Shown piece after piece: positions 3,466 to 42,398 of a DNA stretch of 43,692 bases. The notes beneath the pieces are model-generated. The model had not been told where the DNA came from and did no database searches. It was given only the letters and a program-made list of their open reading frames with translations. This DNA comes from Candidatus Aenigmatarchaeota archaeon (lineage in GTDB: Archaea; Aenigmatarchaeota; Aenigmatarchaeia; GW2011-AR5; JACRMX01), in assembly GCA_018304635.1 (NCBI GenBank), contig JAGVVW010000001.1:1-43692 (forward strand). The letters run 5' to 3'. Within the stretch, counting starts at the first letter, position 1. Every line of letters starts with the position of its first letter. The position numbers and the translations under genes are program-made.

Positions 3466-3900
3466 TTATTCTGCAACTTTCTGTTTTTTTATCTTCACCA
3501 GTATCAAGATCTTTTCAAATAGTTTGTCCAAATATTCTATGCTTTCTTTTGCTTCTTCGTAATTAATTTTTTCTGCATAGTATTTGCTTCCATGACGCTT
3601 TTTTCTTAGTCTGTCGAGATTTTCAATTTCTACGGTTGTAAATTTACTAAATCTTGAAAGAAACGATATATTGGCTTCATGTGAATATGACTTATAACCT
3701 TCTATATAAAATAAAGCATCTATCAATACGATAATGGCTTCATATGCGTTTTCAAATGCATATTTGGGCTTGCGACTGACATCTTCTTTTGCTGTTTTAA
3801 TCCGATCTATTGCATCTTCAATTAATGACTGGGCAAGCTGAAGGTCCTTTTCTCGTCTGAATACATTGCCTTTTTTAATGAAATACTCAAAATCCATCAT
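3466..3900 (-). CDS. HEPN-domain protein (putative toxin of HEPN/MNT pair)
   Basis: All-helical 144-aa protein overlapping the downstream end of an MNT-type nucleotidyltransferase gene. Confidence 0.7.
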   Translation of the reverse strand: MMDFEYFIKKGNVFRREKDLQLAQSLIEDAIDRIKTAKEDVSRKPKYAFENAYEAIIVLIDALFYIEGYKSYSHEANISFLSRFSKFTTVEIENLDRLRKKRHGSKYYAEKINYEEAKESIEYLDKLFEKILILVKIKKQKVAE

Positions 3901-4414
3901 CTACAACACCGTATATTTTGATACCATTCAAAATATTTAATCTTAAATTTTTGTGAACAGATTTCCAGCTATCAAAGTACATGATATGAATTTTTCGTTC
4001 TAAAACTGTTTCAAATTTTTTGGTATCAATCTCTTTTTTGAGCTTTGAAATAATTGCAATATCTATATCAGAATTTTCTAAATCTTCCCCCTTTGCATAG
4101 CTGCCATAGACAAAAATCACTTTTGGATGATTGTATTGCCTAACCAGAAATTTCTTCAGGTCAATTAAAGAATATAGATTATATAATTTTTTCAAATCTC
4201 TGAATTCTTCTGATTCAAGATTTGCATAAATCATCAATGATGGCCCTATTTTCTCGTTCAAAAGAAGGTCTTTTGTTATAAGTTTTTTTACGATAGAAGC
4301 TACAGTCGGCACAGACAAGCCTGTTCTGCGCGAAATATCTCTGATGGAGAGTTTTATCGTGGGGTTTCTGAAAAAAAAGTCCAGTACATTCTCTATGTTA
4401 GATTTTTTTAACAT
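3887..4414 (-). CDS. wHTH-fused minimal nucleotidyltransferase (MNT-type antitoxin)
   Basis: N-terminal wHTH (IRDISRRTGLSVPTVASIVKKL) and NTase motif GSYAKGEDLENSDIDIAII. Confidence 0.85.
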   Translation of the reverse strand: MLKKSNIENVLDFFFRNPTIKLSIRDISRRTGLSVPTVASIVKKLITKDLLLNEKIGPSLMIYANLESEEFRDLKKLYNLYSLIDLKKFLVRQYNHPKVIFVYGSYAKGEDLENSDIDIAIISKLKKEIDTKKFETVLERKIHIMYFDSWKSVHKNLRLNILNGIKIYGVVDDGF

Positions 4415-10150: not shown

Positions 10151-10336
10151 ATGGTTTTAATTGAAGAAAATGGAAAGCATATGACAACTTTTATTACTAT
10201 ATCAAATGATGAGTATGAAAGCATGAAAAGAACGCTTGATATACTGAATGATGAGGAACTAATGAGCCAAATTAATCAGTCCAGACATGCTAAAAGCAGG
10301 TCCTGGAAGGATGTTAAAAAAGAATTAGGGCTTTAG
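10151..10336 (+). CDS. RelB-like antitoxin
   Basis: Short DNA-binding-like N-terminus (TTFITISNDEYESMKRTLDIL) and acidic/basic tail SWKDVKKELGL. Confidence 0.6.
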   Translation: MVLIEENGKHMTTFITISNDEYESMKRTLDILNDEELMSQINQSRHAKSRSWKDVKKELGL

Positions 10337-10596
10337 AAATCATCCTTATGCTTGATCGCTTCTATAGAGATTTTCTTTGAATTTTCATCAATTGTGTAAA
10401 CTATGCGAAAACTTTTTTCAAAGTAAATTTCCCAGTAGCCAGCAAGAACGCTTCTCAAAGGCTTGCCGAATGCCTGTGGATTTGTTGCCAACTTGTCTAT
10501 GCGCTTTGCAAATCTGCGTTGTAATTCCTTATCAAAACTTTTGAGTTTCTTTATCGCTGGATCTTTAATGTAAATATTATATATCATTTCAAACAC
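10333..10596 (-). CDS. RelE/ParE-superfamily toxin (GTG start)
   Basis: YNIYIKDPAIKKLKSFDKELQRRFAKRIDKLATNPQAFGKPLRSVLAGYWEIYFEKSFRIVYTID. Confidence 0.85.
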   Translation of the reverse strand: MFEMIYNIYIKDPAIKKLKSFDKELQRRFAKRIDKLATNPQAFGKPLRSVLAGYWEIYFEKSFRIVYTIDENSKKISIEAIKHKDDF

Positions 10597-10705
10597 TACC
10601 CTTTACGTACTTCCATTTTTTACCTTCCGCTCGGTTCTTGAGCCACATTTTCCAGTCAGGCTTTTTCATTTTAAACACATCTCTGTGTTTGAGAGAGGTG
10701 CTCAT
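10589..10705 (-). CDS. 38-aa basic small protein between MNT and RelE genes
   Basis: Hand translation MSTSLKHRDVFKMKKPDWKMWLKNRAEGKKWKYVKGSV*; starts 3 nt after MNT stop and overlaps RelE start. Confidence 0.55.
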   Translation of the reverse strand: MSTSLKHRDVFKMKKPDWKMWLKNRAEGKKWKYVKGSV

Positions 10706-10707
10706 AA

Positions 10708-11292
10708 TTATGCAGGCACTTCATTTTCAAGCTCTCTCCAATACTCTACACCTATAACAATTATTTTATTTTCCTTTAATTCCTTCATAAAGGCATCTTT
10801 TTCATCAAAAAATTTCTTCCTGAAGTTATTCCATGAAAGGTAAACAGGCTCTATGCTAATACCATGTCTGCTGCTTACTAATTTCGCTTTTTTTTCTAAT
10901 TCATCATTCAATTTATTAAAAACAAAAATAACATCAAGGTCGCTCGTTTTTGTGAATGTGCCTTTCGCATATGAGCCGAAAATTATTACTATAATGGGTT
11001 TGTTCTCAAGTAAAGAAATTATATCAAAAACTGCATCACCAATAACTTTTGGAAGACTTTTCAGGCGAATGGATTCTATCTGATAGAGATATGATGTCAG
11101 ATTTCTATTTTTCCTGTTTATATAGAGCTTGAGATTTCTACCCTCATATTTTTTAGTAATAAGACCTTCCTTAAGCAATTTATCGACATGATTCTTCACA
11201 GCAGGTATACTTAACTTGAGCTTTCTTGACAGTTCGCGTATATGTATACCTTCGTTTACATATATCACTAAAAGAATATCGATCATTTCCAT
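10708..11292 (-). CDS. wHTH-fused nucleotidyltransferase (MNT family)
   Basis: HIRELSRKLKLSIPAVKNHVDKLLKEGLI wHTH; GSYAKGTFTKTSDLDVIFVF NTase motif. Confidence 0.85.
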   Translation of the reverse strand: MEMIDILLVIYVNEGIHIRELSRKLKLSIPAVKNHVDKLLKEGLITKKYEGRNLKLYINRKNRNLTSYLYQIESIRLKSLPKVIGDAVFDIISLLENKPIIVIIFGSYAKGTFTKTSDLDVIFVFNKLNDELEKKAKLVSSRHGISIEPVYLSWNNFRKKFFDEKDAFMKELKENKIIVIGVEYWRELENEVPA

Positions 11293-20420: not shown

Positions 20421-21839
20421 ATGCCTGTGTCTGTTTATCTTGGCGAATCCAATGAAGGAAGTGTTTCATGGATTCCAAAAAATGAAAAAAACCCACACTT
20501 ACTGGTTGTTGGCACAAGTGGCTCAGGAAAAACCGTAACACTACGCTCGCTTGTTTATGAGCTTGGAAAATCTGGAATACCGAGCCTTATTGTGGATTTC
20601 CATAATGACTTTGATGACCTGGCTGAAAGCATTCTGGATTTTAAAAATATTACAATAAATCCACTTGACTTTTCCGGCGGTGAAACTGCTGAAACATCAA
20701 TGTATAAAGTTTCCAGCATTTTAAGCAAAATATTCAGATTAGGTGTGCAGCAGGAAGGTGTGCTGCAGGATGCTATAATTGAAAGTTACGGAAAATATGG
20801 AATCGGGCTTAAGGATACAATGCATGATGGCGCTATACCTGATTTTAATACAGTACGACGGGCATTGGAAGAGAAAATCGATGTTTTGCGTGAGGAAAGG
20901 CGTGCGACTGTTACAGTTGAAACATTGATGGTCAGGCTTAGGCCGCTGTTTGACACGGGTTTCTTTTCCCAGAAGGAAACGAAAAAATTTGATGAAATTT
21001 TCATGAAAACAACTGTTTTAAAGCTTCGCGACCTGCCGACAGACGAGGTAAAATATACTGTTGCTGAATTTTTTCTGAACAAATTAAAATATGCCCTTTA
21101 TAAAAAGGGAAAGACAGATGAGCTCCGGTTATACTGCATAGTTGACGAGGCTCATAGGCTTATAGATGAGAGAAGCCCGCTAAATGACTTATTGAGAGAA
21201 TCGAGAAAATATGGAACAGGCGTGATAATGTCTTCTCAGCGCCCGGGTGATTTCAGTGAAACTGTTCTTGCAAACATTGGCGCATTTATTGCATTTCAAT
21301 GCAGGCTTGACAAAGACTCTAAATTTGTTTCAAAACAGATGAAAATAGATTTTGAATCTGTACAAAATTTAACTGAAACAGGAACTGCATATATAGATTT
21401 TTCTTCCAGTGATCGCAGTTTAAAAGTCAAGGTAAAAGATTACGACAGCAGAACAAGCGGGAAAAAACAAATAAAAAATATGAGAATTGAAGATACTGCC
21501 AAAACCAGTAGTGATGAGATCAAGATATATCCTGAGAAGAAATATCAAACAGTTAAATCTATCCCAAATAAAAAATCCAAAACCTCTGAATCGTTGCATG
21601 AGAATCCTGAAAACTACAGCGCTAAGATAATAACACATGAAAAAACACGAACACCGTTACATTGGTTTTTTGATGGGATTAAAAAATCATGGGATGACCT
21701 GGGGCTGATATTATCATCAAAAATCTGGCGCGCTATGCTAATAGCTGCGATCGTAGCTCTTGGGTTCTTTGCATTCAATTGGTTTTCAATTCTTGCGATA
21801 ATTATATTTTTTATGGTTTTAGGATTTCGAAAAGTATAA
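20421..21839 (+). CDS. HerA/DUF87-like ATPase with C-terminal transmembrane segments
   Basis: Walker A VVGTSGSGKTVTLRSL, Walker B LYCIVDEAHRLI, SSQRPGDFSETVLANIGAFIAFQ; C-terminal hydrophobic WRAMLIAAIVALGFFAFNWFSILAIIIFFMVLGF. Confidence 0.88.
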   Translation: MPVSVYLGESNEGSVSWIPKNEKNPHLLVVGTSGSGKTVTLRSLVYELGKSGIPSLIVDFHNDFDDLAESILDFKNITINPLDFSGGETAETSMYKVSSILSKIFRLGVQQEGVLQDAIIESYGKYGIGLKDTMHDGAIPDFNTVRRALEEKIDVLREERRATVTVETLMVRLRPLFDTGFFSQKETKKFDEIFMKTTVLKLRDLPTDEVKYTVAEFFLNKLKYALYKKGKTDELRLYCIVDEAHRLIDERSPLNDLLRESRKYGTGVIMSSQRPGDFSETVLANIGAFIAFQCRLDKDSKFVSKQMKIDFESVQNLTETGTAYIDFSSSDRSLKVKVKDYDSRTSGKKQIKNMRIEDTAKTSSDEIKIYPEKKYQTVKSIPNKKSKTSESLHENPENYSAKIITHEKTRTPLHWFFDGIKKSWDDLGLILSSKIWRAMLIAAIVALGFFAFNWFSILAIIIFFMVLGFRKV

Positions 21840-25625: not shown

Positions 25626-26396
25626 GTGATTTTTATTAAAATTAACCAGATTGAACAGGGAAAGCCTGTACTTGTTTTGGCCAGAGTTTTGACTGAAAAG
25701 ACAAGGCTTTTAAAATCTGGAAGCACTGTACAAAATATTCTTTTAGCTGATGATACTGGTTCCATACGACTTGTTCTCTGGAATGATGAAATAGATAAAT
25801 ACGGGATAAAAGAAGGAGAAACCATAGGAATTAAGGGTTATTGCAAAAAAGATAGCGTGGAAATTAAGTTCATTTCTCTCGGGCCATACGGCGGTATAGA
25901 AAGGTCTGACAAGGAAATAAAAAATATTATGACAATATCCAGAAAAAGTATAGAGGAACTTAATCTGGGTGATAAGGCTGAGATAAGAGCTGCTTTTGTT
26001 CAGGTATTTGAATCTAGGCATTTTTACAGAGCCTGTTCTGAGTGCGGCCTGAAATTAGAAAATGACGAATGCCCGGAACATGGCAGCCAAAATGGAGCAT
26101 ACAACATGGTACTTAACGGGATTACTGATGACGGAACTGGTAATATACGAATCGTATTCTTCAAAGACGTTGCTGAGAAACTCACCGGCAGGAACGTAGA
26201 TGAAAATATGAAGCTTTTTTTAGAAGATAGAAATAAATTTTATTCTGCCATGCCGGTTGGTGTGGAATTTATTTTCCGTGGCGTATGCCAGTATAATAAT
26301 TTTCTTAAAAGAAATGAGTTTCTTGTAAATGAAATAAAACCAGTTGATGTAAATAAAGAAATTAAAGCATTAACAACAAGTAATTTTAATGTCTGA
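25626..26396 (+). CDS. RPA-like single-stranded DNA-binding OB-fold protein with zinc finger
   Basis: OB motif [35 protein letters not shown]. Confidence 0.85.
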
Positions 26397-27489
26397 AATA
26401 GAAGATTTGCCCGGTATCGGGCCGAAAGGTGCTGAGAAACTAAGAGAAGCTGGTTATGATAATTTAATGTCCATTGCTGCTGCAAGCATTGGCGAGATTA
26501 CAGAAGCCTGTGGAATAGGCGAGGCCACTGCTGAAAAAATTATAGAGGCTGCACGCAGCCAGCTTAAAATGGGATTTGAAACTGCTGAAGATGTCCTGAA
26601 GAAAAGAGAGAAAATCGGGAAACTGACAACTGGCAGCAGTGAATTAGATAAACTGCTTGGTGGTGGTGTTGAAACACAAGCTATTACAGAAGCTCATGGT
26701 GCATGGGGTTCTGGAAAAAGCCAACTTGGGTTTCAATTATCTGTTAATGTTCAATTGCCTGTAAGCGAAGGCGGACTTAATGGAAAGTGCCTTTTCATTG
26801 ATACTGAAGGCACATTCAGACCTGAAAGAATTGTGCAGATTGCTGAATCTATGAAACTGGATGGAAAAAATGTTTTAAAAAATATTTTTGTTGGCCGCGC
26901 ATTTAACAGTGACCATCAGATTGTTCTGGTGGACAATGCAAAAGATGTTATTAGGAAAGAAAATGTAAAGCTTATTATTGTTGACTCTATGATGTCACAC
27001 TTCAGATCAGATTACAGCGGCCGGGGTGAACTGGCTCCGAGACAACAAAAACTCAACAGGCATTTACATGACCTTCAAAGAATCTCTGATATCAATAATC
27101 TTGCTGTTTACTTTACAAATCAGGTTATGGCAAACCCTGGCCTTTTATTTGGAGACCCTACAACTGCAATAGGCGGTCATATATTGGGACATGCAGCCAC
27201 TGTCAGACTGTACCTGAGAAAAAGCAAGAATGATACAAGAATTGCGAGGTTGATTGACTCGCCAAGCCTACCAACGGGTGAAATTATTTTCACCATTGAT
27301 GCTTTAGGTGTTACAGATAAAGGAAAACGGGAACCAAAAAAAACAACAACCGAAGACGGCGAAAAAAAAGGTGCAGGAAACGGGAAAATTGAAGATGAGA
27401 AAACCGAGGGATCTGTAGATGAGAAAAAAGATATAACAGGAGAAAAGAAAAGAGGTAGGCCGAAGACAAAAACCGGGGATGAGGAATAA
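26389..27489 (+). CDS. radA: RadA recombinase with charged C-terminal extension
   Basis: [18 protein letters not shown] Hh[18 protein letters not shown] Walker [29 protein letters not shown]. Confidence 0.97.
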
Positions 27490-27687: not shown

Positions 27688-27945
27688 CTAAGCGATTTCT
27701 TTTTCAGAAATAATCACAAAATCGCCAACGCTTTTTACAGTTGAGAACGGCACAAGCATTCTGTTTTCTTCATCGCGCTCCAACGTAAGATTTTGTGTGT
27801 GCTTTGTAGGTTCGGAAAGAACGAGGCTCAAGAGTTCACCGCTTTCAGAAACAAATTTCAGATCACCGACAACGCCAAATTTTCTGCCAGTTTCCTCAGA
27901 AATAACGACTTTCCCAATAATTTCTCTTGCTCTTGACTTCAACAT
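27688..27945 (-). CDS. PRC-barrel domain protein
   Basis: AREIIGKVVISEETGRKFGVVGDLKFVSESGELLSLVL; VPFSTVKSVGDFVII. Confidence 0.85.
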   Translation of the reverse strand: MLKSRAREIIGKVVISEETGRKFGVVGDLKFVSESGELLSLVLSEPTKHTQNLTLERDEENRMLVPFSTVKSVGDFVIISEKEIA

Positions 27946-27993
27946 AAAATCACACTTACTATATTTTAGCACACATACACTTAAATAATTATA

Positions 27994-28042
27994 CTTTTTC
28001 TTTTTTAAAAAAAAGAATGACTCGATGAGCAAGCTCATTTCG
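27994..28042. repeat. weak micro-hairpin element copy I with polyY/polyR stem
   Basis: CTTTTTCTTTTTT/AAAAAAAAG then ATGAGC-AA-GCTCAT-TTCG. Confidence 0.4.
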
Positions 28043-28196: not shown

Positions 28197-29465
28197 TCAG
28201 GCTTTTACAACCAGTGTCTTGATACGTGGGGACAAAACGTATAAGAATGCGCGACCTGTTCTTTCTCTTTCAATAAAATCCTCAGTCATCATTCTTTTCA
28301 AAATATTGTTTACAGAACGAACTGCATGCTGACGTGTTTTGTATTTAGACAGATCAATAAGATTTGCTATTTCACCCGGGGAACGAGGCTTTATAGCCAG
28401 CAATTCTATTATATTTTTTTGCAAAGACGTCATGGAGTCTATAAAATGCATAGAGGATGTGGTAATCGCTGTGATATCTGGTGATGTTTCTGCCAAATCC
28501 GGGGTTATAGAATATACTCTTTTATTCACAGCTTTGTTCACCATATCATCACACATTCTCAGAACTTCACGCGGAAAACCGCCTGTTCTTTCATATATTA
28601 TGCTCAATGATGCTGAAGTGAATGGCGTGCTATTATTACCGCCAACGCTTTCTATACGCTTTTTTATCAGTTCTTCTGTTTCTTCTTTTGTGAGAGATAA
28701 TAACTCGACTTTTGTAGTTATTCTTTTTCTAAAAGTCTCCAGGTTCTCTTTTAGATTTGCCTCGAAGACAGGCAGTCCTGATACTATAAGAGACATGTTA
28801 TCAACCTGATCTGTTAATACGCGAAGCCATTCCAATACTTCCTGATCAGCCTCGTGGATCTCATCACAGAGGACAATGAGATGTTTTTTACCCAATTTCT
28901 TGTTCAGAAAATTCGGAATCTGATAAAGATTTTTTATGTGAGGGTTAAACCACCTTAAAATCCATGATTTTTTGAATTTTTCGTTGAAAATGTCGACAAA
29001 ATTTTCAGCTTTTTGCGGCATTTTACTTATATATAGGCTTTCATATCCGTTTTTCAAATTAGCTGTCAACCACTTTAGCATTGTGGTTTTTCCTGATCCA
29101 GTTGGTCCAACGATCATTGATAATTTATGGCCTGAATATATTGAATTCATGATTTTATCCAGTTGTTCATTGTATCCAACAAGAAGGGATGGTAATATAG
29201 AAAGTGTGAAAGGATTTGTAGACCAGTTTACTTCAGAAAACCAGTATTTTATTGAGTATGATTCAGAAACTGGCTTAAAATGCGGTTTTAATGCTGTTCT
29301 TTGGTGGTTTTTTTCATCACCGAAAAGGGTGTTGTGGGCTATATGTTTTGATTTAAATTTGGATGAAAACGACTCCTGATCAGGCTTGGAATTATCTGTT
29401 TTTTCATTATTTTCAGGTATAGCTTTAGGTATAAGTATTTCATCATTGTTCTCATTTTCACTCAT
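28197..29465 (-). CDS. Orc/ExeA-like AAA+ ATPase with C-terminal wHTH; candidate replication initiator
   Basis: Walker A VGPTGSGKTTMLKW, Walker B LIVLCDEIHEA, sensor VSGLPVF, RTGGFPREVLRMCDDM, C-terminal HTH. Confidence 0.75.
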   Translation of the reverse strand: MSENENNDEILIPKAIPENNEKTDNSKPDQESFSSKFKSKHIAHNTLFGDEKNHQRTALKPHFKPVSESYSIKYWFSEVNWSTNPFTLSILPSLLVGYNEQLDKIMNSIYSGHKLSMIVGPTGSGKTTMLKWLTANLKNGYESLYISKMPQKAENFVDIFNEKFKKSWILRWFNPHIKNLYQIPNFLNKKLGKKHLIVLCDEIHEADQEVLEWLRVLTDQVDNMSLIVSGLPVFEANLKENLETFRKRITTKVELLSLTKEETEELIKKRIESVGGNNSTPFTSASLSIIYERTGGFPREVLRMCDDMVNKAVNKRVYSITPDLAETSPDITAITTSSMHFIDSMTSLQKNIIELLAIKPRSPGEIANLIDLSKYKTRQHAVRSVNNILKRMMTEDFIERERTGRAFLYVLSPRIKTLVVKA

Positions 29466-29504
29466 AAAACATTATACTTACAAGAGAGTTTATAAAGTTT
29501 TAAT

Positions 29505-30080
29505 TCATGTGAAGTTCACGTTTTTTATGTGAGTGTTCACGTTAACTTCACTGTAAAAACATATTAATACGTTATGTTCACATTAACTTCACGTGATGTT
29601 CACGAAGTTCACGTGATTATTTTTTTCTCTTATAATTTATATATTTTTATTGAAATAAGTTCACTATATTTGTTCACGTTCACGTATACTTCACGTGAAA
29701 TATTTGTGAATATGTATATTTTTTTATATTTTTATGTGAATTACGTGAAGTATCTGTGAATACTTTGTGAAATTAAAGTGAAGTTCACGTGATATTCATA
29801 TGAATTCATGTGAACATTGTGTGAAGTCGGTTTTAATATTTTTGGACTTACTATGGCTAAATATAATAATAGAACATATTTCGTGAGTTTTTTGATTTTT
29901 AAGTTCTTGAGGAGAAAATACAGGTAATTTTCATATATATGAATTTGTAGAGGTGTGATCAAAATGTGAGTCTTTTTTTCTAAACAAAGTCTCACAAAAT
30001 CCATGTTCACGCAAATTCACAGAACCTTCACGCATATTCACGTAGCTTCATATGAAGTTCACAGAACCTTCACGAAGTTC
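29505..30080. repeat. dense TTCAC(G)/(C)GTGAA iteron cluster; candidate replication origin or operator array
   Basis: Roughly two dozen or more half-sites by eye, including TTCACGTGAA (~29690) and two GTGAAGTTCAC composites. Confidence 0.8.
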
Positions 30081-30174: not shown

Positions 30175-30477
30175 CTAGATATTCTTTATCACGGACACCA
30201 TCTTAAGGATTTTAGTTATACTCATACCCTCGCCCAGCCTTTCAATAACATATGGTTTTAATTTTATCACTCTCAAAATAGGCTTTTCTGAACCTAGGCT
30301 AGTATCATCTATTAAATCACTAAGAATATTGTTGATATAGCTGGTTACTGTAGATGGGTGTAAATTTGTTTTTTCTGCTAATTTACGTATCCAAAGTCCT
30401 TCTGGATTTTCATATAATGCTTTGACTATAGCATATATTTTATCATCGCTGAACCCTGGCTTTCGTCCCATAGTCAT
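30175..30477 (-). CDS. winged-helix DNA-binding protein
   Basis: WIRKLAEKTNLHPSTVTSYINNIL. Confidence 0.75.
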   Translation of the reverse strand: MTMGRKPGFSDDKIYAIVKALYENPEGLWIRKLAEKTNLHPSTVTSYINNILSDLIDDTSLGSEKPILRVIKLKPYVIERLGEGMSITKILKMVSVIKNI

Positions 30478-36562: not shown

Positions 36563-37624
36563 AATATGTTGCAGCAGGCGATGTGTTGTCTGTCATAGTG
36601 CTGATTTTTTAATGATGCTATCATAGGCGTTTGGATGGATAAAGCTAGCTCCCATGCTGCCTGAGGGATGGCTTGGCTTGACAGGCGATGAAGGTCCTGG
36701 TAAGCTGGGAAAAGTCAGGGCGAGTCGCATGCAGACTTCGAACCCTGAATCGCCTAATGGGACATCCCTTATATTCACGGCAAAAAGCTGTGAAAGCGAA
36801 CGCGGAGAATTGAAAGAGAAGAAGTTGATTAAACAAATAAAAAATATATGAGGAACACAGATTGATTTTATAGTTGAGTTAAATGGATCAAATATAACCG
36901 AAAATAATTTCAGCTTCTTCTCCAAGAAACATCTTAATATCCGCAGGAAAAGAAAGCAAACGCGATGTTGTTAGTAAAGGCGATTGAACGCAACAGAGAA
37001 CAAACCGAACCTTTGCAGAAATGCAATAGGAATGTGGGGTTTGGACCTGTTTTTGACTTAACTTTCTATCTGAAGTCTCCTGGAAAGGAGTGCCATAGAC
37101 AGTGATAGCCTGGTAAGAAAAAGAAAGAAAGTTGTTATTCAGGTATCCAGAGTATGATTGGTTGAATTTCCAGTCAGAATGCGGGAGTCATCAACTTCCA
37201 ATTCTAAATTACTCGTCAAGTCCGATAGCGAAGTAGTAGGGTGACTGAAAGCTCAAAAGTATCCATAAAAGGAGTTGAAAAGAGCCTGAAATCAGGTAGC
37301 TACAGTTAGGCAGTGAAAGCCCGGCAACGGGTATAAGCTGCTGTTAGTTTTGAAAAACTAAGCAGGGAGTTTTGGATCGTGGCAAGGTGAAAGCCGTAGC
37401 GAAAGCGAATATCGTATGAAAGTGCGTAAGTCACGGTCTGAATACCCGAAACCGCAGTGATCTAGGCCTGAGTAAGGTGAAGTCGCGCGAAAGCGCGATG
37501 GAGGCCTGAACTGGTTTTGGTACAAACCACTCAGATGACTTGGGTCTAGGGGTGAAACGTGAGACGAACAAAGTTCATCTACGTTTGTTGCTCACGCACC
37601 AAAAGCCAATCGAACGCGGTGATA

Positions 37625-38080
37625 TCTTTAGGGTTAATAGCAAACATACGGCTTAGCATCCATATTCTCTTTTTCGGTCCTTTAGACACGAAAAATAGAT
37701 AAGGATGCTTCGCCTAAATAGTAAACATGAAAACAAGAATTCCAATTGAAAATTATCTGAGAATGTTCAGAAACCAAAATATTTATATGAGTGGTTGCGA
37801 GAAAATCGTTAAAAAATATGAACATAAAATTAAAAAATTATCTAAAAAGAAGATATCATTTCATCAAAATGATTTCGATTCTTTGAAATTTATTAAGAAC
37901 GTTCTTAATAATTTCGGTATAAAGACTGGTGAAATATTTCTTCAGGATAAAAGAAAGTGTTATGCTCTTTATATTCAATCTACAGATGGAATACAAAAAT
38001 TTGCTTCTTTGTTTGAACCTATTCAGAAAAAGAAGAGAATTAATGATTTATTAGATGTTTTGCTTCCTAAAGACACCAAA
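37625..38080 (+). ncRNA. 23S intron 1 (between GGTGATA and GCTGGTTCC, E. coli ~806-810) containing LAGLIDADG-like ORF
   Basis: Breaks conserved GGTGATA^GCTGGTTC; terminal pairing TCTTTAGG/CCTAAAGA. Confidence 0.75.
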
Positions 38081-38125
38081 GCTGGTTCCTCCCGAAATGA
38101 GTCTCAGCTCAGCCTGGTTCTATAG
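37727..38125 (+). CDS. LAGLIDADG-type homing endonuclease-like protein, ORF runs into the 3' rRNA exon
   Basis: FIKNVLNNFGIKTGEIFLQDKRKCYALYIQSTDGIQKFASLF; inside 23S intron. Confidence 0.6.
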   Translation: MKTRIPIENYLRMFRNQNIYMSGCEKIVKKYEHKIKKLSKKKISFHQNDFDSLKFIKNVLNNFGIKTGEIFLQDKRKCYALYIQSTDGIQKFASLFEPIQKKKRINDLLDVLLPKDTKAGSSRNESQLSLVL

Positions 38126-38373
38126 ACATCAATGGGGTAGGGCACTGATTAGACAACCAAGGGAAGAAATTCCCAGTTGCCTTGTCAAACCGCGAATCTG
38201 TTGATACTGGAACTGGAGTGAGAGCATCTGGAGTAATTTTGGTGCTCGAGAGGGAAACAACCCAGACTTATGTTAAGGTCCCTAAGTACTGACTAAGTGT
38301 ATCGAAAGTAGTCTTGAATTTTAGACACTGGGGAGGTTGACATAGAAGTCGTCATCCTTTAAACAACGTGTAA

Positions 38374-38501
38374 AAGCCCTTTTTCTTTTTATAAGAAATC
38401 TATGAAAAAAGAAAAAGCTCTTGGGGAAAAAGAAAAATATAATATATTTTCCATAAACGTTTTTTCGTAGATAAAAATTTTCGATTCTCGAAAAAGGGTT
38501 T
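38374..38501 (+). ncRNA. non-coding insertion in the 23S GTPase-associated centre (E. coli ~1085-1100)
   Basis: AAGCCCTTTTTC (38374-38385) / GAAAAAGGGTTT (38490-38501) ends; inner CTTTTTCTTTTT/AAAAAGAAAAAG. Confidence 0.65.
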
Positions 38502-39182
38502 CATGATATAACGGACCCACCAAAATTCAGGGCGCTGAAAATGGACGGGGCTAAGTCAGTTACCGATACATAAGATGTGCGATTTATAATCGTATGTGGT
38601 AGGGAGGCGTCCTGCGAGGGCAGAAGCTTGTCTGTAAAGATGAGTGGACCTCGCTGGAATGAAAATCCTGCTGGGAGTAGCAAACAAGCCGGGTGAGAAT
38701 TCCGGTCGCCAAAAGGGTAAGAGTTCCCCAGTAAAGCTTATCTACTGGGGGGTAGTCGATCCTAATTGCAACCCTAACTGGGATTGCGAGAAAGGGCATA
38801 CGGTTAATATTCCGTAACCAATGATATTTCGTTTATGTTGCATTCAACGTTTTAGGATAGGCTGACCATGATTGTCGTCGTGGCCAATCATCTAAACAGG
38901 AGGAGATGCGTCATGCAGAGAATCTTGTGAAGATGCCATGGGGCTGCTGTATGGTGGCTTCAGTTGATTCCTAGAACCATTGAAAAGAAATGCAAACAGA
39001 AATGCCATTGTTCGTATCGAAAACCGACACAGGTACCCATGCTAAGAACTGGTATTAGGTGAAAAATATGAGTTATGCAGCAATGTGTCATATTGAGATA
39101 AGAAATGTCAGTATAGTATCACTATAATACCACTTAATGGCGAAGGTGTTCGGGATAATCAACCTAAAGGAATTCGGCAAAT

Positions 39183-39437
39183 GAGCGTAGAATTCGTCCA
39201 ATAAGCACTGTAAATTTTAAAAATTTTATTCCTATAATTTATATGGTACTTAGATGTTATTATGTAAATTCATTGCAGTCTCCTGTCAGATGGTTCTGTA
39301 GATAAAAAGCGATACACCGTATCTTTTACAAAAGATAATGTTGAAAAGTTTCTACATAATTGTGTGGAATTGATAAATAATCAAAAAGAGTTTCGTGATT
39401 TTATAAAATTAAAATTGAATTCTACACTCAGTCGAGA
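39183..39437 (+). ncRNA. 23S intron at E. coli ~1680-1690 with LAGLIDADG remnant
   Basis: Terminal pairing GAGCGTAGAATT (39183-39194)/AATTCTACACTC (39418-39429); interrupts GGCAAAT^TAGTCCTGTACG. Confidence 0.65.
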
Positions 39438-39441
39438 TTAG
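39280..39441 (+). pseudogene. LAGLIDADG homing endonuclease C-terminal remnant
   Basis: Hand translation LLSDGSVDKKRYTVSFTKDNVEKFLHNCVELINNQKEFRDFIKLKLNSTLSRD*. Confidence 0.7.
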
Positions 39442-39643
39442 TCCTGTACGTTTTCCATAAGGGATGCCTGCTTAGAGATAAGCAGGTCGCAGTGACTAGG
39501 GGATTCCGACTGTTTAACAAAAACATAGCTGGCTGCTAGTCCGAAAGGATGTGTATAGCCAGTGAATCGTGGCCACTGGTGGTCGGTTAAACTCAGTTTC
39601 AACTGGGCAAAGCCCCACTATAGGCCGGCCCTAACTCTAGTAC

Positions 39644-39665
39644 GACGAGCAGAGCTCGTCTTTCG
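39644..39665 (+). repeat. micro-hairpin element copy G in 23S helix 69 region
   Basis: GACGAGC-AGA-GCTCGTC-TTTCG between GGCCCTAACTCTAG and GAAGAGGGTCTTAAGGT. Confidence 0.75.
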
Positions 39666-39684
39666 GTGAAGAGGGTCTTAAGGT

Positions 39685-40474
39685 GATGATAAAAAAGCCT
39701 GTACTTCGTACAGCACGCTACGTTGCCTTAATAAAATTTGGCTGTATGCTGGAACGTCCAGATTTTCCAAGTCCTGAGAAAGGAATAATCTTGGAAGTAT
39801 GAGGATAATCAGCAGGAAACCGCTGGGGGTGAGAAACCATGAAATCAAAGTATGTCAAACATTATCTCAGAGGTTTTACAGATGCAGAAGGATGTTTCAG
39901 TATTTCTTTGAAAAAAGATGATAAGGCGAGATTTGGTTGGGTTCTAGATCCTTTATTTCAAATAACGCAACACAAAAAAGGCGCTAAGGTTCTAGAAATT
40001 TTCAAAACAGAATTAAAATGTGGTAGAATAATAGAAAAACCAGGACAACCTGATCTTTTGCTTTTATTGATTGATAACAGAAGACAATTAATGGAACACG
40101 TAATACCGTTCTTTGAAAAAAATAAACTTTTATTAAAGAACGATGACTTTGAAAAATTTAAAGAAATTATAACTGGAATGGAAAATAAAATGCATCAAAG
40201 AAGAGGTGATTTCATAGAACTTATTAAAAAATGTTATGAAATGAATATGGAAGGAAAACAGAGAAGATATAAACTTGAGGATATTCTAAAAGACGTAAAT
40301 AAAAAAGCGGGCTCCTCAGAGACTAAAAGCCAAACACAAAGCGAAAATGCTTTGTGAAGATATAGTCCGAACCTCATGGTAACATGAGGAGTTATGCAGA
40401 AATGTATAACCGCTTCTAAAGAAAACCTGAATATTTTGATTTGTTCTTTAGATGTCAGAAAAGTAACAGAATTG
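39685..40474 (+). mobile_element. group I intron in 23S rRNA (site CTTAAGGT^AGCG, E. coli ~1931) encoding a LAGLIDADG homing endonuclease
   Basis: 5' exon ends U, intron ends G; IGS GCCTTAA (39725-39731) pairs with exon TTAAGGT with U.G at splice site; P7 GACTA/TAGTC; P8 ACAAAGC/GCTTTGT; P9 CCTCATG-GTAA-CATGAGG. Confidence 0.92.
39839..40357 (+). CDS. LAGLIDADG homing endonuclease
   Basis: YLRGFTDAEGCFSISLKKDDKARFGWVLDPLFQITQHKKGAKVLEIFKTELKCGRIIEKPGQPDLLLLLIDNRRQLMEHVIPFFE. Confidence 0.95.
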   Translation: MKSKYVKHYLRGFTDAEGCFSISLKKDDKARFGWVLDPLFQITQHKKGAKVLEIFKTELKCGRIIEKPGQPDLLLLLIDNRRQLMEHVIPFFEKNKLLLKNDDFEKFKEIITGMENKMHQRRGDFIELIKKCYEMNMEGKQRRYKLEDILKDVNKKAGSSETKSQTQSENAL

Positions 40475-40712
40475 AGCGTAATCCCTTGCCAACTAATTAT
40501 TGGCCTGCATGATAGATCAACGAGAGTCCCACTGTCTCTAGGTTGAACCCGGCGAAACCATCTTTCTGGTGATTAGGCCAGAGACTTCCGATGGGAAGAG
40601 TAGACCCCGTGGAGCTTTACTGCAGTTTATTGTTGTAGTATGGTCGTTGTTGTATAGCGTAGGTAGGAGACGTCGAAGCGAAGGCGAAAGCTGACGTGGA
40701 GTCACTAAAGAC

Positions 40713-40765
40713 CTGACACATCGAAAACACTGACGAGCTTCGCTCGTCTTTCGAGTGTGTGTCAG
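40713..40765 (+). repeat. nested micro-hairpin element copy H within 23S
   Basis: Outer CTGACACA/TGTGTCAG, middle TCGAAA/TTTCGA, inner GACGAGC-TTC-GCTCGTC. Confidence 0.8.
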
Positions 40766-41051
40766 TCGGTGAGTGTAACACTACCCTTCAATTTCCATAT
40801 TGCTAACGTGAAGAAATTTGCGGACATCAGTAAATGGGCAGTTTGACTGGGGCGGTACGGCTTTGAAACGGTATCAAAGCCGCTCTAAGGTCTCCTCAGT
40901 CCGGTCAGAAATCGGGCGGCGAGTGTAAGCGCAAAAGGAGGCTTGATTGGATTCTGAACAACGAGGAATCCAAGGGCGAAAGCCTGAGCTAGCGATACGC
41001 ACATTGGCCTTGATGGCTGTGTGTGACGTCAGAAAAGCTACCCCGGGGATA

Positions 41052-41496
41052 GATTTATAAATGTCTACTTGAAAACAGAAGCACGAAAGAAAAAGGATTT
41101 GTCTTTGGAGCAAGTCACGACGGTATAGTTTATTACAGAGAAAACAAGAACTAATATGGATTGGAAATTGATCAAAAATCCAGAGAATGGCTATAAGAAA
41201 TCTAGAATTAGTTCTTGCACAAAACATAGATTTCCAGATAGGATTTCTTCAAGGAATTTTCGATGCAAAAGGAAGTGTTCGTTTAAATCGCAAACACATA
41301 ACAACAAATTCTAATAACATGAAAACAATTTCCGTCGTTACGCGATTGCTCAATGATATATGAATTAACATTGGTAAACCCTTTAATAATTTATCTGAAT
41401 TTAGGAAATTTGTCGATTTTATACATCCTGAAAAGAAACGAAGACTTCGAATGCTTTTGTAATGAAATCGTTTGTAAATCCCTCAAAATGGTGTCG
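41052..41496 (+). ncRNA. 23S intron at GGGGATA^ (E. coli ~2449) with decayed LAGLIDADG ORF; 3' boundary approximate
   Basis: CCCCGGGGATA interrupted; exon resumes near GGTGTCGTAGCGGGTTAGAGTTCATA. Confidence 0.7.
41187..41462 (+). pseudogene. LAGLIDADG homing endonuclease with one in-frame TGA
   Basis: MAIRNLELVLAQNIDFQIGFLQGIFDAKGSVRLNRKHITTNSNNMKTISVVTRLLNDI*INIGKPFNNLSEFRKFVDFIHPEKKRRLRMLL*. Confidence 0.8.
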
Positions 41497-41616
41497 TAGC
41501 GGGTTAGAGTTCATAATCCGCGCTCTTCCATAAAAGAAGAATAGACGCGGTTGAACCTATCGACCCCGCGTGTTGCGGCGTCGCTGTCGGCTCCCCCTCT
41601 CCTGGCTGTGCAGAAA

Positions 41617-41704
41617 AGCCTTTTTATGCCCTTTCTTTTTCAAAAAAAGAAAGTGCATCCGGAAAGAAAAATTCTTTTTGGAAAAATCTTTGTATAAAAA
41701 GGTT
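41617..41704 (+). ncRNA. A/T-rich hairpin insertion at the tip of 23S helix 91-like stem
   Basis: GGCTGTGCAG...CTGCAAGCAGCC stem expanded by CCTTTTTAT/ATAAAAAGG and GCCCTTTCTTTTT/AAAAAGAAAG. Confidence 0.65.
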
Positions 41705-42398
41705 CTGCAAGCAGCCAAGGGTGCCGGAGTTCACGGATTAAAAGGGGACGTTAGCTGGGTTCAGAACGGCGTGAGCCAGTTTGGTCTATATCTGTCGGAA
41801 GTGCTAATGCCTGAGAGGAAGGGACAATAAGTACGAAAGGAACATTTTCCCGGGGCCTCTGGTTTATCAGCTGTCTGATAAGGCAAGTTGAGTAGCTACG
41901 CCCTAATGGATAACACCTGAAAGCATCTAAGGTGTAAGCCATTCTCAAAACAAGGCATTCGGCTGGAGCAAGACGACTCCTCTATGGAGCAGGGGTGTAA
42001 GCATCAAGCTTCGGCGAGATGTTCAGCCCACTGTTTCCTATGCTAATGCTAGCTTCCAAATTCCAAACGCTTATGAGAAAAATATTGCAAAAGACAAAAT
42101 CTGTGAAATCAAATATCCATGATGAAACATGGGGAGATATGTTTTCGAGATCCCTTATGGAAATTGGAAATTTGTATAACTTCCAAAATATTGCGAACTT
42201 GATGGATTAACTATAGAAAGATGTAAAACATTGTGCAATGGCCGGGATGGGTTGTATAATTCTTATTGTCGTGTTGTTCAAAAAGATAATTGGTATCCTG
42301 TTGAAGTCATGATAGAACAGGGATTCCTAAAATCCCTTGAAAGTTTAGATCAGCTTAGGCTGTAGTGTTGCTATAGAAATTTACTTGCATTGTGTGTA

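Follow-up and report, generated by a model that had tools for sequence, protein, structure and literature searches.

The plasmid sites parC and tubC are repeat arrays that lie upstream of their own operons and are split in two or three blocks, and the small DNA-binding proteins that bind them also repress the operon (PMC5016525). The parS sites and the sites of archaeal SegB cluster near origins, and the knowledge of archaeal chromosome segregation in general is very rudimentary (PMC12284271). How the chromosome is copied and shared out in tiny-genome archaea is essentially unknown.

Here, we analyzed a window of 43,692 nt, by which we mean the whole stretch of DNA under analysis, corresponding to bases 1–43692 of contig C35 (107,790 bp) in a MAG of 1.08 Mb and 52 contigs. 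The original prediction proposed an intergenic repeat region in this window as a candidate non-canonical origin, perhaps paired with a divergent initiator. Part of this proposal stands, as iterons occur at orthologues and the model of the neighboring ATPase has an Orc-like fold, while the ordinary origin, with a canonical Orc1/ORB pair, lies elsewhere. Judged from sequence, the array region appears to be a single-copy site and a candidate for nucleoprotein assembly, distinct from the Orc1 origin.

A helically phased array of half-sites

The array lies in an intergenic region of 709 bp, bounded by a gene for a 100-aa winged-helix protein (30175–30477, minus strand) on its far side and by the gene for a 422-aa AAA+ ATPase (28197–29465, minus strand); intergenic lengths are approximate because gene starts are uncertain. 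This region holds 28 exact TTCAC/GTGAA half-sites within 565 bp (29509–30073), in good agreement with the two dozen or more in about 570 bp that had been counted by eye, whereas dinucleotide shuffling of the region gave a mean of about 2.6 and a maximum of 9 (500 shuffles). The division into two blocks also holds. The proximal block (29509–29825) contains 22 half-sites, which read TTCAC in 29509–29694 and GTGAA in 29695–29825 with one exception in each part, and the distal block (30006–30073) contains six, all of them TTCAC on the plus strand, at spacings of 10, 11, 10, 21, and 11 bp. Between the blocks lies a spacer of 180 bp (29826–30005) without exact half-sites. The composites TTCACGTGAA and GTGAAGTTCAC, named in the original prediction, are both found in the sequence. 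A weakly conserved core in the spacer (29845–29890, minus strand), read by eye and without statistics from a MAFFT alignment of the spacers of 16 genomes, consists of a CTCAC(A) box and, after it, a degenerate dyad of the TACTAT/ATAGTA type. No RNA family was matched in the array region by Rfam at gathering cut-offs.

The pattern TTCAC-N6-TTCAC has 11 matches in the window against 0.16 expected, and none of 100 shuffles reached 11. Across the whole 1.08-Mb MAG there were likewise 11 matches, every one inside the array, and a reversed-pattern control gave 0.

Same-strand half-site spacings in this genome follow a period of 10.4 bp with a resultant of 0.73, a value reached by 0 of 2000 random placements. 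Helical phasing was found not only in this genome but also across its order and in all other family groups tested, and the best period in five other family groups was 10.3–10.7 bp. Across 25 intergenic regions from the order, the distances between half-sites on the same strand have maxima at 11, 22, 31–33, 42, and 52 bp; distances from TTCAC to GTGAA peak at 5, 15–16, and 25–26 bp and continue beyond, and those from GTGAA to TTCAC peak at 6, 17, 28, and 39 bp. With periods of 10.3–10.7 bp, half-sites of the same orientation therefore stay on one face of the helix. Such a register would suit a continuous assembly with one protein bound at each turn.

Conservation of the array and its neighbors

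Orthologues of the ATPase were found in 105 of 145 relatives and in 111 of 156 genomes of the phylum, and arrays lie upstream of them in about 20 families; the iteron thus recurs beside orthologues throughout the phylum, as the original prediction would have it. For all 21 of 21 extended loci (12 families), the 400-bp segment densest in half-sites lies just upstream of the ATPase gene, with 6–23 half-sites against 2–9 in the second-best segments elsewhere. Nine more families beyond these 12 also carry arrays; families f8 and f13 have only weak arrays. An array comprises 20–40 half-sites in helical register, in two or more blocks, and in the order the layout is one of block, spacer, and block, where the relatives have spacers of approximately 50–230 bp. 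The array persists as a pattern, and most of the DNA around the half-sites is not conserved or alignable. Divergent paralogues of the ATPase (about 25–30% identity, on other contigs) have no arrays and no clear plasmid context. We found no description of the array/ATPase locus in the open-access literature, which does not prove absence.

The gene order winged-helix, array, ATPase, PRC-barrel recurs, usually with RadA and RPA in convergent orientation. In this genome, a PRC-barrel protein of up to 116 aa (27688–28038, minus strand) is encoded just downstream of the ATPase, followed by the convergent genes for the RadA recombinase (26389–27489, plus strand) and an RPA-like OB-fold protein (25626–26396, plus strand), both conserved neighbors. 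The PRC-barrel gene adjoins the ATPase gene in nearly all families and loci. The 100-aa winged-helix gene stands beside the array in many families, but some array-bearing families lack it at this position.

A TATA-like element of the ATPase gene, CTTTATAAAC (29488–29497, minus strand), is our own reading of the sequence; it would lie directly beside the array, which occupies the operator position of an operon encoding the ATPase and usually the PRC-barrel protein. MalT-like ATPase regulators bind helically phased box arrays, and the array could in the same way serve solely to autoregulate the ATPase/PRC operon. We consider an oversized operator of this sort improbable. The array does stand directly upstream of the TATA-like box, and no further copies are present in the genome, which therefore points to a local target only; however, it does not cover the box, 20–46 sites over 0.4–1 kb far exceed what autoregulation needs, and the retention across the phylum and the proximity to orc1 would be left unexplained.

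A few further repeats were noted outside these arrays. In G015, a second, smaller TTCAC cluster with 9 half-sites in 400 bp (contig C1, approximately 9.15–9.55 kb; L253:4150–4550) lies about 0.8 kb upstream of the 100-aa winged-helix gene. Contig C1 of G081 (L244, L125) carries two full sets of RPA, RadA, PRC, ATPase, and array, 206 kb apart and with N runs at one of them, which could reflect a genuine duplication or a chimera in the assembly; the second array locus was excluded from the evidence because of the N runs and the possible chimera. Dispersed 16-mers of the TTCACATATAGTTCAC type in family f3 (G016:C2:132628 and 745218, and similar 16-mers in G013, G020, and G029) were rejected as extra binding sites, as the copies in G016 belong to a shared inverted-repeat element that looks like a MITE or an IS end.

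An ATPase with an Orc-like fold

The ATPase has the Walker A motif GPTGSGKT, a Walker B DE, an invariant R248, and R299 within GFPR. The P-loop AAA+ core and C-terminal wHTH that had been proposed are both recovered: the core matches AAA_22 (42 bits vs a cut-off of 27), and an AF2 model (mean pLDDT 84) places a winged helix C-terminal to it. Three residues of the last long helix, R383, N386, and N387, are invariant in 32 orthologues. Because of these residues, and because the 100-aa winged-helix gene has gone from some array-keeping families, we infer that the winged helix of the ATPase is the predicted reader of TTCAC.

Among curated families, the best match is the ExeA-like TIGR03015 (75 bits vs a cut-off of 324.5), which agrees, below the cut-off, with the earlier remark that the motifs look ExeA/TniB-like. 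The ExeA/TniB ATPases (AAA_22, TIGR03015) are the closest sequence family of the AAA+ core and have similar PF...P...GY motifs and a GFPR sensor-2, but the ATPase described here differs from them in its C-terminal winged helix, its phylum-specific conserved residues, and its low TIGR03015 score. Transposon ends can bear arrays of binding sites, and this distant likeness could be taken to mean that the locus is a relic of a mobile element, with a TniB/TnsC-like ATPase and end repeats for a transposase. We strongly disfavor this explanation and regard it as highly improbable, as the locus is single copy and vertically conserved with its RadA, RPA, and PRC neighbors, a transposase is absent both at the locus and among the conserved neighbors, and plasmids and viral contigs gave no full-length relatives of the ATPase (plasmids gave only distant ExeA-like matches).

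The best PDB matches of the model in Foldseek are Orc2 of A. pernix, Drosophila and yeast ORC, and Cdc6/Orc1 of Sulfolobus, with TM-scores of approximately 0.5, 12–16% identity, and E-values down to 5e-14, which supports the Orc1/Cdc6-like plan that had been suggested for this protein. In the model, strand 2 is separated from the Walker B strand by two or three helices; by our own reading of the clade, they would correspond to those of initiator-clade AAA+ proteins. An HMM comparison with Orc1/Cdc6, put forward together with that plan, gave no profile homology: hhalign against the Orc1 profile of the same phylum reached a probability of 11% over the P-loop part only, PF24389 (ORC-CDC6-like) scored 18.5 bits, under its cut-off of 27, and the ATPase gene was not among the matches of PF22703 in its own genome. 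The ATPase, as modeled, is built like an Orc protein, yet by the profile tests it is not Orc1.

Relation to the canonical origin

A canonical orc1/Cdc6 gene (403 aa) is present on the same contig (C35:63674–64885), separated from the array by 34 kb. It is preceded by an ORB box TTCCATGAGAAATGTGGGGG at C35 63394 and by two partial ones (63441 and 63495), and DP1 and later PolB lie downstream; the search for a canonical orc1 elsewhere, advised by the original prediction, thus had a positive outcome. No ORB boxes (TTCCAnnnGAAAnnnnGGGG) were found at the array, where neither an ORB motif nor a G-string is present, and the iteron indeed departs from the classical archaeal ORB consensus. Among 174 loci scanned, the ORB pattern TTCCANNNGAAANNNNGGGG occurred at orc1 loci only and at no array locus. 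Most relatives also have a canonical Orc1 and ORB, and the orc1 gene of G127 has two ORBs at a distance of 3 kb. GC and AT skew were dominated by gene strand, with no usable extreme, on most of a 918-kb contig, on 699 kb of a 742-kb contig, and on C35. Because a canonical orc1 with ORB is found there and ORB is confined to orc1 loci, orc1 is the most likely place of the usual origin, which would put it 34 kb away from the array, as far as can be told from these motifs.

The locus resembles the archaeal Orc1/Cdc6–ORB oriC1 in that an AAA+/winged-helix protein adjoins intergenic repeats and the fold of the ATPase is Orc-like overall. Unlike oriC1, its array has no ORB motif, the profile of the ATPase is unrelated beyond the P-loop, and the canonical Orc1/ORB pair is separate. 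An auxiliary or alternative origin, at which the ATPase would act as a divergent Orc/DnaA-like initiator on the phased array and open the DNA or load a helicase, is in our view less likely than the partition role considered below, yet a strong rival to it. Its appeal comes from the Foldseek matches to Orc2, ORC, and Cdc6/Orc1, the combination of AAA+ and C-terminal winged helix, the helices between strand 2 and the Walker B strand, the RadA and RPA neighbors, and family f22, which is without the ATPase and also without canonical Orc1. Its weak points are the canonical Orc1 and ORB 34 kb away, likewise in most relatives, the profile comparison with Orc1, the TM-scores of only about 0.5, and an array without ORB, G-string, or any special A/T-rich tract in comparison with the region upstream of orc1. 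As for the A/T-rich tracts thought to be suited to unwinding, the intergenic region as a whole is A/T-rich (GC 0.28), but the sequence upstream of orc1 is at least as A/T-rich (GC 0.27), and A/T content alone is therefore no mark of an origin.

The ATPase gene and orc1 are both present in 94 genomes and share a contig in 42, and in 40 of these 42 they are at most 60 kb apart, at highly variable distances (1.3–59 kb). AlaRS, a control gene taken from the same window, was at most 60 kb away from orc1 in 14 of the 20 genomes that have both on one contig; over all, it was so in 14 of 93 genomes, with 7 within 30 kb. The ATPase gene is linked to orc1 more often than AlaRS (Fisher p = 4e-5, which is optimistic as the genomes are related), and because AlaRS is also near orc1, the linkage is partly a general synteny of the origin region. 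It fails in two single-contig genomes, where the ATPase gene and orc1 are 294 kb (G127) and 379 kb (G141) apart. The well-completed genomes of family f22 (e.g., G065, G070, G075, and G080) have only a divergent Orc1 paralogue of about 30% identity, besides their lack of both the ATPase and canonical Orc1.

A possible centromere-like site

Our tentative interpretation, to which we give almost an even chance, is that this is a phylum-wide nucleoprotein-assembly locus with parC/tubC-like anatomy, where the ATPase would polymerize on the array, most likely for partition of the origin region. We prefer a centromere-like site since the canonical origin is found at another place, and since the array forms one large, phased site that is linked to the origin. 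Similar to parC and tubC, the array lies upstream of an operon, in blocks and in helical register with a spacing of approximately 11 bp. The small winged-helix gene, adjacent in many but not all of the families that keep the array, may be a counterpart of their small DNA-binding proteins, with TubR among the Foldseek matches of the model of its 100-aa product (6tey, TMt 0.67, rank 31). In contrast to these plasmid sites, the array is chromosomal, phylum-wide, and made of half-sites in both orientations, and its constant partner is an AAA+/winged-helix ATPase rather than ParM or TubZ. The array is also near an origin, as the partition sites of SegAB cluster near one (PMC12284271), whereas SegB sites are scattered over the chromosome as well, in place of one dense array with an AAA+ ATPase, and the SegAB motor is a ParA-type Walker ATPase.

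In the centromere-like scheme, each turn of the DNA would offer one TTCAC site to be read by the winged helix of the ATPase, so that many ATPase molecules could assemble next to one another as an ATP-controlled filament or a wrap. The 100-aa winged-helix protein may join the ATPase assembly or read the spacer core, and the ATPase–array complex would also repress its own promoter. The last and least certain step would be the centromere-like job, namely the capture and the positioning or segregation of the origin region, with the Orc-like AAA+ protein standing in for ParM, TubZ, or ParA. No gene for a ParA-, ParM-, or TubZ-type motor adjoins the locus, which offers only the AAA+ ATPase in their place. 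A scan with PF13614 as a marker of ParA/SegA was not discriminating, as 58 of 59 genomes match, likely including MinD/Mrp relatives; the sole match in this genome is on another contig, C13. We know of no AAA+ partition motor of such a sort. Counting against partition, RadA and RPA as neighbors would suit a role in replication equally well.

Somewhat more doubtful is the fuller proposal of a new partition or origin-organizing machine in a DPANN-type phylum, in which an Orc-like AAA+/winged-helix ATPase, acting through a PRC-barrel partner and without ParA, ParM, or TubZ, would polymerize on one phased centromere next to the origin. A cis-element that is kept across the phylum only as a pattern of repeats, always next to the same ATPase and in the vicinity of the origin, offers a concrete site and a concrete protein. 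As a centromere, it would extend the partition ATPases by an AAA+ class; as an origin, it would represent a second initiator–replicator pair, unrelated to Orc1/ORB.

Other features of the window

The window also contains an archaeal 23S rRNA gene (36640–42057, plus strand), which is stretched by insertions to 5.4 kb against 2987 consensus positions. Together with RadA and the RPA-like protein, this gene marks the organism as an archaeon. At least one insertion carries an ORF for a LAGLIDADG endonuclease (39839–40357), and a 132-aa ORF in the same gene (37727–38125) has no Pfam match. A ParE/RelE-type toxin-like gene adjoins a winged-helix nucleotidyltransferase gene at 10333–11292 (minus strand), and a second winged-helix nucleotidyltransferase, at 3466–4414, has a small ORF as its partner; both pairs are possibly toxin–antitoxin-like. 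A HerA/FtsK-like translocase ATPase of 472 aa with a hydrophobic C-terminus is encoded at 20421–21839 (plus strand).
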